Positions 16,259 to 62,284 of a stretch of DNA of 64,000 nucleotides are shown in pieces (position 1 is the first letter of the stretch; each line of letters starts with the position of its first letter). A program made the translations under genes and the position numbers. Origin of the DNA: Methylotenera sp. (GTDB lineage: Bacteria > Pseudomonadota > Gammaproteobacteria > Burkholderiales > Methylophilaceae). The notes under the pieces were generated by a model, which was not told the DNA's origin, did no database searches, and saw only the letters and a program-made list of their open reading frames with translations. The DNA lies in NCBI RefSeq assembly GCF_029946165.1, contig NZ_JAQSDZ010000001.1, positions 352,442 through 416,441 of the forward strand. Direction: 5' to 3'.

Positions 16259-16301
16259 AAAATTAAAACGTCTAGACATATAGTGACGATGTTTTAATTT
16301 T
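16259..16301. repeat. Inverted repeat in divergent intergenic region upstream of rimO
   Basis: aaaattaaaac (16259-16269) / gttttaatttt (16291-16301), extended by gtc/gac internally. Confidence 0.6.
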
Positions 16302-16313
16302 TTAAAAATTTAT

Positions 16314-33189: not shown

Positions 33190-33312
33190 AAATAATTCAA
33201 GCTTCTAAATTAGGCAAGGCGTGAATAAAAAATAATGACGCGGCATACATGAAGTATGTAAGGAATTATTTTTTATTCGCAACGCAGCATAATGACGAAG
33301 ATTGAATTATTT
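33190..33312. repeat. Nested inverted-repeat element (copy 1) between rlmN and ndk
   Basis: Outer stem aaataattcaagcttc (33190-33205)/gaagattgaattattt (33297-33312), 15 of 16 paired; inner stem gaataaaaaataat (33223-33236)/attattttttattc (33255-33268), perfect; core acgcggcatacatgaagtatgtaag. Confidence 0.85.
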
Positions 33313-61895: not shown

Positions 61896-62002
61896 GTGCG
61901 TATTTTAAGCCATAAACGCAAAACTAAAGATAAACTCAGATAAAAACTTGATTTGTAGTACTCAATGTTAAAATACGCTTCAATGCACCATATTTAATGC
62001 CT

Positions 62003-62126
62003 CGAAAATTAAAAAAGTCCAAGCAAAACGAGGCGCAAAATAATTTTAAGCACGCAGCATATGTTTTATATGTAAGTGATTAAAATTATTTTGCAACGAT
62101 GTGTTGTGACGAATTTTTTAATTTCG
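62003..62126. repeat. Nested inverted-repeat element (copy 2) in divergent intergenic region
   Basis: Outer cgaaaattaaaaaagtc (62003-62019)/gacgaattttttaatttcg (62108-62126); inner perfect 15-bp gcaaaataattttaa (62035-62049)/ttaaaattattttgc (62080-62094); core acgcagcatatgttttatatgtaag. Confidence 0.85.
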
Positions 62127-62281
62127 TTTCATCATCAAGAGATGACGAGGCGACAAGCCGCAGACAGTACGACTAGTACGGCAAGCCAGTATTTGGCTTG
62201 TCCGTGGAATATACGAGCTAAAGCTAGTTATTCACACGCCAAGGCGCAGGCAACAAAGTCAGAATTGATGAGGAGATGAAA
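62127..62281. repeat. Nested inverted-repeat element (copy 3, divergent/composite) directly upstream of ylqF
   Basis: Outer tttcatcatcaa (62127-62138)/ttgat-gagga-gatgaaa (62265-62281); inner gacaagcc (62152-62159)/ggcttgtc (62195-62202); core gcagacagtacgactagtacggcaag. Confidence 0.65.
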
Positions 62282-62284
62282 TAA

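Follow-up and report, generated by a model that had tools for sequence, protein, structure and literature searches.

A nested hairpin upstream of ylqF in Methylotenera sp. raises the question of how two arms stay complementary when their letters differ from copy to copy. The DNA analyzed, which we call the window, is a stretch of 64,000 nucleotides from contig NZ_JAQSDZ010000001.1. From the letters alone, the first-pass annotation had described at positions 62003-62126 a second element sharing its core with another copy but not its stems. It had offered two accounts: selection on structure, or a copying process that rebuilds the second arm from the first.

The nested element (c2) is present in the 5′ leader region of ylqF, on the plus strand. 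Its outer arms, 62006-62019 and 62111-62124, are 93% complementary, and its inner arms, 62035-62053 and 62076-62094, are 95% complementary. The inner stem is variable in sequence and covaries. Internal loop 3 has CAA at 62020-62022 (TAA in the usual form) opposite GAC at 62108-62110. Internal loop 1, assigned by column conservation, has C-GA-G-GC at 62029-62034 on the 5′ side and AA-C-GAT-G (consensus AACGCAG) at 62095-62101 on the 3′ side. Loop 2 and the apical hairpin occupy 62054-62076 (GCA-GCATAT..ATATGT-AAG). Covariance model R1, of which c2 is a training member, matched it at 62006-62125 with an E-value of 2e-30, and the core model R3 matched 62020-62110 with an E-value of 3.3e-18. The element is longer than first described. 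Degenerate terminal repeats, AATGCCTCGAAAATT...AATTTTGAGGTATT, were seen outside the marked stretch in the ylqF orthologues of related species (L167-L169, L184, L185), which places the start of c2 near 61996 and its full extent at 61996-62126.

The site before ylqF is occupied by c2 in seven species of the genus. In the same orthologues (L167-L169, L184, L185) the right terminal repeat GAGGTATTAAATG is the ribosome-binding site of ylqF, so that the end of the mobile element now belongs to the start of the gene. A probable sister element lies in tandem with c2 on the plus strand, at 62126-62283, as judged from its sequence and from orthologues L170-L172, L175, L176 and L181. It is also nested, with outer arms ATTTCGTTTCATCATCAA...TTGATGAGGAGATGAAAT and a loop of AC-GA-G-GC facing GC-AA-C-AAA-GT, and its loop 1 motif, GACGAGGCG...GGCAACAAAGTC, is the same as that of c2. 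The GAGGAG that precedes the start codon of ylqF comes from the right end of the sister element. The sister element lies outside the reach of the R3 model. In many species of the genus, the position of c2 before ylqF is taken by the sister element or a variant.

The other copy in the window (c1) lies at 33192-33311 on the plus strand, between rlmN and ndk. Both of these genes are on the minus strand, so c1 is antisense to the operon. It was matched by R1 with an E-value of 1.3e-35, c1 being one of the six copies from which R1 was built. At ndk-rlmN, 14 or more other species of the genus carry an orthologue of c1, whereas in several species (L158-L163 and others) the gap is empty of the element. 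On this comparison c1 is an old insertion, and its target duplication is not visible at ndk-rlmN. The terminal repeats of c1 are lost, and c2 has degenerate ones that can still be recognized in its orthologues; by their sequences both window copies are old. A relic at 16259-16302 on the plus strand (R1, E-value 2e-4) consists of the outer stem alone and has no inner hairpin. It shares its flanks with an intact orthologue (L094 in genome G013), and therefore the inner hairpin was deleted in this genome.

In this genome R1 scored 14 or more copies at E<1e-14, including copies absent from the training set, a result well beyond what chance would give. The junctions that had been reported for c1 and c2 (AGGCG, ACGCRGCATA..TATGTAAG, GCAACG and TGACGAA) are real, and the further copies carry them too. 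Some relatives have dozens of copies, with at least 57 in G051, a genome of the same order. The element is thus not confined to two instances, and its stems covary. That the stems are unrelated in sequence holds between genera and families. It does not hold within the genus, where most copies share an inner stem of the GARYAAAAAAT type and c2 is among the divergent ones. In some copies (L144, L146, L149, L151, L185, L019, L024, L025) the left internal loop is interrupted by a different hairpin repeat, CCCGTTAAGGGCATCACC...GTGCGATAAG. The insertions occur at two orthologous sites, as if the left loop were a preferred target. An alternative left module, considered for L019, L024 and L025, was rejected when orthologues showed the second repeat inserted into that loop.

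Intact members in relatives are 141 bp long, start with GGGCACCTCTA, end with TAGAGGTGCCC and are mostly intergenic. Among the 60 copies that have both terminal repeats, 53 are 141 or 142 bp long and 35 have identical flanking 4-mers, compared with 5.9% in a mismatched-pair control. G051 also carries several copies of an insertion sequence of ∼1.33 kb with the same 16-bp ends, of which 3/6 have identical flanking 4-mers as judged by eye. The ORFs of this insertion sequence match NCBIfam transpos_IS5_4 (E-values 8e-47 and 2e-28) and Pfam DDE_Tnp_1. Likeness between the two is confined to the 16-bp ends, and the interior of the small element is not derived from the insertion sequence. These sequence data show a family of MITEs that would be moved in trans by an IS5-family transposase with a 4-bp duplication. 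The contrast with MITEs that had been drawn for this locus does not stand: the elements are MITEs, and their terminal repeats and 4-bp duplications match an IS5-family insertion sequence. A single half-protein query found no matching transposase in the genus itself. In the copy at L100 (330-1390), the G051 transposase is split over two ORFs that overlap, a sign of a frameshift that may be programmed or due to decay.

From the outside inwards, the family is built of the terminal repeat and outer helix, loop 3, a helix of 4-6 bp, loop 1, the inner helix, loop 2 and the apical hairpin. Loop 3 is TAA facing GAC, and loop 1 is AA-G-GC facing AA-C-GCA. Loop 2 is the loop 1 motif inverted, GA-C-GCA facing AA-G-GA. 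In 58 diverse sequences, loop columns hold 1.9-2.0 bits and inner-helix columns 0.02-0.6 bits. Helix columns are paired in 92-99%, and the inner helix in 92% of cells. In the genus-level set, two-sided change was observed in 33/42 pairs, and 343 two-sided cells compare with 94 after shuffling; none of 500 shuffles reached the observed value. In the phylum-wide set of 58 sequences there were 496 two-sided cells against 156 shuffled and at most 117 with the partners slid, and the 95.4% of cells that are paired fell to 32-48% after sliding. The core set agrees with both. At the orthologous ndk-rlmN (c1) and ylqF (c2) sites, too, pairs have changed together in place: helix 2 shows AT to GC and TA to CG, and the inner helix AT/TA/GC. 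Therefore, the constraint persists after insertion. On these alignments, the pattern is the one expected when a three-dimensional structure is conserved and its helices are free to vary.

If these were ordinary MITEs, the structure would merely be left over from an ancestor that was palindromic, the shared letters would reflect common descent and the pairing would simply not have decayed yet. Most inner stems can be aligned within the genus, as this account expects. However, inner-helix columns hold ∼0-0.6 bit and yet 92% of their cells are paired across unrelated families, whereas decay should break pairs before it randomizes them. The phylum-wide covariation contradicts the account, and RNAfold and the outer palindromes give no sign of an alignment artefact. 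We regard it as very improbable.

Mismatches differ between the strands. With strand-symmetric scoring, G-U outnumbers A-C by 72 to 18 in the family (p 8e-9) and by 31 to 10 in the distant members (p 0.0015). These counts take the sequences as independent, and the distant set, drawn from different genera, is the safer of the two. The pair adjoining loop 2 is G-U in 50/58 distant sequences. The excess of G-U over A-C, ∼4:1, means that one strand, the plus strand, is the structured one. Together with the conserved G-U pair and the invariant loop letters, it leads us to infer that the plus strand is under structural selection, most likely as RNA rather than as single-stranded DNA. In the c1 orthologues the G-U excess is absent (6:3 by symmetric scoring, 6:6 by events), in a small sample. 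The missing asymmetry could mean that both strands matter there, that arm-to-arm correction helps, or that the sample is small. It may be the mobile lineage, and not the resident copies, on which strand selection acts.

The arm-regenerating process proposed earlier can be weighed here. Complementarity would be kept by quasi-palindrome template switching at replication, one arm being rewritten from the other under little or no selection. On the family tree, two-sided changes are commoner than one-sided ones (139 Watson-Crick to Watson-Crick, 62 to G-U, 18 to A-C), though such tree counts are rough on short mobile elements. A-T/T-A flips, which are impossible through a G-U intermediate, are common, and the resident orthologues are compensated with no strand asymmetry. 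However, template switching should erase mismatched internal loops, yet near-invariant loops flanked by perfect stems persist throughout the phylum. It also predicts no strand asymmetry, which does not match the family-wide G-U excess. The process is not needed to explain the data, though it may have contributed, and as the main cause we consider it rather unlikely. Selection on structure, the other account, is supported by covariation above all shuffles and slid controls, by the near-invariant loops, by the strand-specific tolerance of G-U and by compensation in place.

The hairpin might instead work as single-stranded DNA, with the plus strand folding and being recognized during replication or transposition. 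REP/RAYT and integron attC systems operate through single-stranded DNA hairpins and provide a precedent. Strand-specific structure that is found family-wide and not in resident orthologues is what selection acting only during mobility would leave. Against this, the ends and the 4-bp duplications are of the kind left by a DDE (IS5) transposase, which works on double-stranded ends; an unsystematic look met no HUH or tyrosine enzyme with the family, and the constraint clearly persists in resident copies. We judge a DNA-level role unlikely. The idea of attC sites or IS200/IS605 ends was dropped in view of the 4-bp duplications and the DDE type of the ends.

Old copies lie antisense more often than sense relative to co-directional neighbours (33:16 and 13:7), whereas the recent G051 copies have no orientation bias (5:9); these counts are small and based on simple ORF calls. 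Purifying loss of sense copies, if the plus-strand hairpin is costly in mRNA, would produce an antisense bias. The bias does not fit a simple benefit in sense mRNA. We therefore favour a plus-strand hairpin that acts post-transcriptionally, and have little confidence in any one enzyme. The position of the copies bears on another account, in which they would be mainly bidirectional transcription terminators or insulators kept for shielding neighbouring genes. They are intergenic, in many cases only tens of bases away from a stop codon, and have A/T-rich inner stems. However, many lie between co-directional operon genes (c1, ndk-rlmN) or in 5′ leaders (c2, ylqF). Fixed internal loops are unnecessary for termination, and the distant members have GC-rich stems and no T-runs. 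A terminator function as the main role is improbable.

A core-only model found the architecture in at least 46 of 250 genomes of the order and at least 41 of 369 genomes of the class. A broadened core-only model found it in at least 111 of 399 Pseudomonadota genomes. The distant members were reached with iterated models, R1 to R2 to R3, and such iteration is prone to drift. Their outer palindromes, which are absent from the model, scored a median of 14.5, compared with 6 in mismatched flanks. This self-complementarity is independent support that the distant matches are genuine, and these members also fold as predicted with RNAfold. Their stems, the outer ones included, are unrelated between genera and families. 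Their terminal repeats are quite different as well (AACAGGCTGTTGAAAAAC, AGAACCTGTTCACGATCTC, TCCGGATAAGAAATGAATTTAAAAC and others). One core combined with several putative types of transposase end is the most surprising point, and it is shown as a pattern. The same core with different terminal repeats implies that the core outlived changes of the mobilizing transposase, by a route that we infer. At one locus (L134), the superfamily members at 1501-1583 and 1846-1938 are ∼260 bp apart and oppositely oriented.

Rfam had been suggested as a place to look for an existing family, and it held none. Rfam 15 (4227 models) gave no match in the window at the gathering threshold and, at E-values up to 0.1, no match at the element in 15 loci. 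Searches of open-licence papers by terms and sequence strings found no description of the element; one in a subscription journal or an ISfinder entry is possible. MITEs and structured repeats as such are known. The novelty, as read from these alignments, is a superfamily that is set by its loops and the lengths of its helices, whose sequence is not conserved, and that would span the phylum with several types of terminal repeat.

The reading that we prefer, at a probability of roughly 0.68, is a transposase-mobilized MITE superfamily with a structured, probably RNA-level core. Accordingly worded for this locus, c2 would be a non-autonomous copy whose ends were recognized in trans by an IS5-family transposase and which inserted with a 4-bp duplication. 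Between the ends, one strand is predicted to form a long hairpin with near-fixed internal loops: TAA/GAC, then [AA]G[GC] / [AA]C[GCA], and that motif once more, turned round, beneath the apex. Its helices, as the aligned copies show, change freely while pairing holds. The plus strand was most likely selected as RNA, which would arise when transcription from nearby promoters reads through. By a weak analogy with ERIC, the RNA hairpin may act post-transcriptionally, in processing or stability, and so limit or tune what the insertion does to flanking genes. Found with quite different terminal repeats across the Pseudomonadota, the core would have survived changes of the mobilizing transposase.

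A wider proposal is tentative: the core could be an RNA module that rides MITEs of several transposase families, with ERIC as one twig and one common molecular partner. Ends would then be exchanged and helices drift completely, and loop motifs and helix lengths would persist, which we hold as a possibility only. Equally speculative is that the partner is a ribonuclease or an RNA-binding protein, which would account for the loops as well as for the bias in orientation.

Because families of bacterial repeats are delimited, and looked for, by their sequence, one defined by shape alone would be split into many unconnected species repeats or missed. The fixed loops hint at a common cellular partner that is open to search. 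If the unification is true, the hundreds of datable copies make the family a natural experiment in compensatory evolution.

Compared with known systems, the family resembles IS5-family MITEs in general, which have terminal repeats and a 4-bp duplication matching an IS5_4 transposase. Unlike them, it has an interior that is not derived from the insertion sequence and whose own structure is conserved. Correia/NEMIS, YPAL, RUP and bcr1 are likewise small and intergenic, with terminal repeats and hairpin transcripts (PMC2229807, PMC3733652). They are defined by conserved sequence, and were set apart from the family by description. REP/BIME/REPIN repeats, tagged with GTAG or CGTC, are also palindromic and intergenic with unpaired conserved letters (PMC3733652), but they are 20-40 bp long and tied to RAYT tyrosine transposases, whereas the family is 141 bp long with DDE-type ends. 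Length and DDE-type duplications speak against membership in REP/RAYT. The BRE repeat of Bordetella and other Betaproteobacteria is a beta-proteobacterial repeat associated with an sRNA; it is ∼90 bp long, 69% GC and often tandem (PMC3110155), and was compared with the family by description only.

ERIC (IRU, RU-1), a 127-bp element of Enterobacteriaceae and Vibrionaceae, is also close to the family. Like the family, ERIC is a small, intergenic, MITE-like element with one long imperfect hairpin, and two of its internal loops, TAA/GAC and AAGGCG / (C)AACGCA, recur with order and strand unchanged. Its core, CCCCAGGAGCTTAC...GTAAGTGACTGGGG, is absent from c1 and c2. ERIC has 7-bp terminal repeats with TA termini (PMC2229807), in contrast to the 16-bp IS5-type ends and 4-bp duplications of the family, and its inner helix pairs in a shifted way. 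When R3 was applied to seven ERIC loci of E. coli and Klebsiella, six matched in register, with 28.7, 25.3, 17.3, 11.6, 10.6 and 9.8 bits, each as the top place within its own locus; the seventh gave a partial match. Two Klebsiella copies reached E-values of 4e-6 and 3e-5 in 3.5 kb, which are rough values. The narrower model R2 gave 3.0 bits on one ERIC locus (L224). Because the E-values are rough and R2 gives 3 bits, we grade ERIC as a probable, not a proven, distant relative. If the unification is true, ERIC, used in typing for three decades and of an origin that is not known, gains relatives in dozens of genera. The hairpin shape has relatives throughout the Pseudomonadota, to which the classic ERIC repeats of gut bacteria may belong. 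ERIC is reported to alter mRNA stability in an orientation-dependent manner through an RNase E site (PMC2229807, PMC10969869), and by analogy this effect would be the best lead for the function of the element here.
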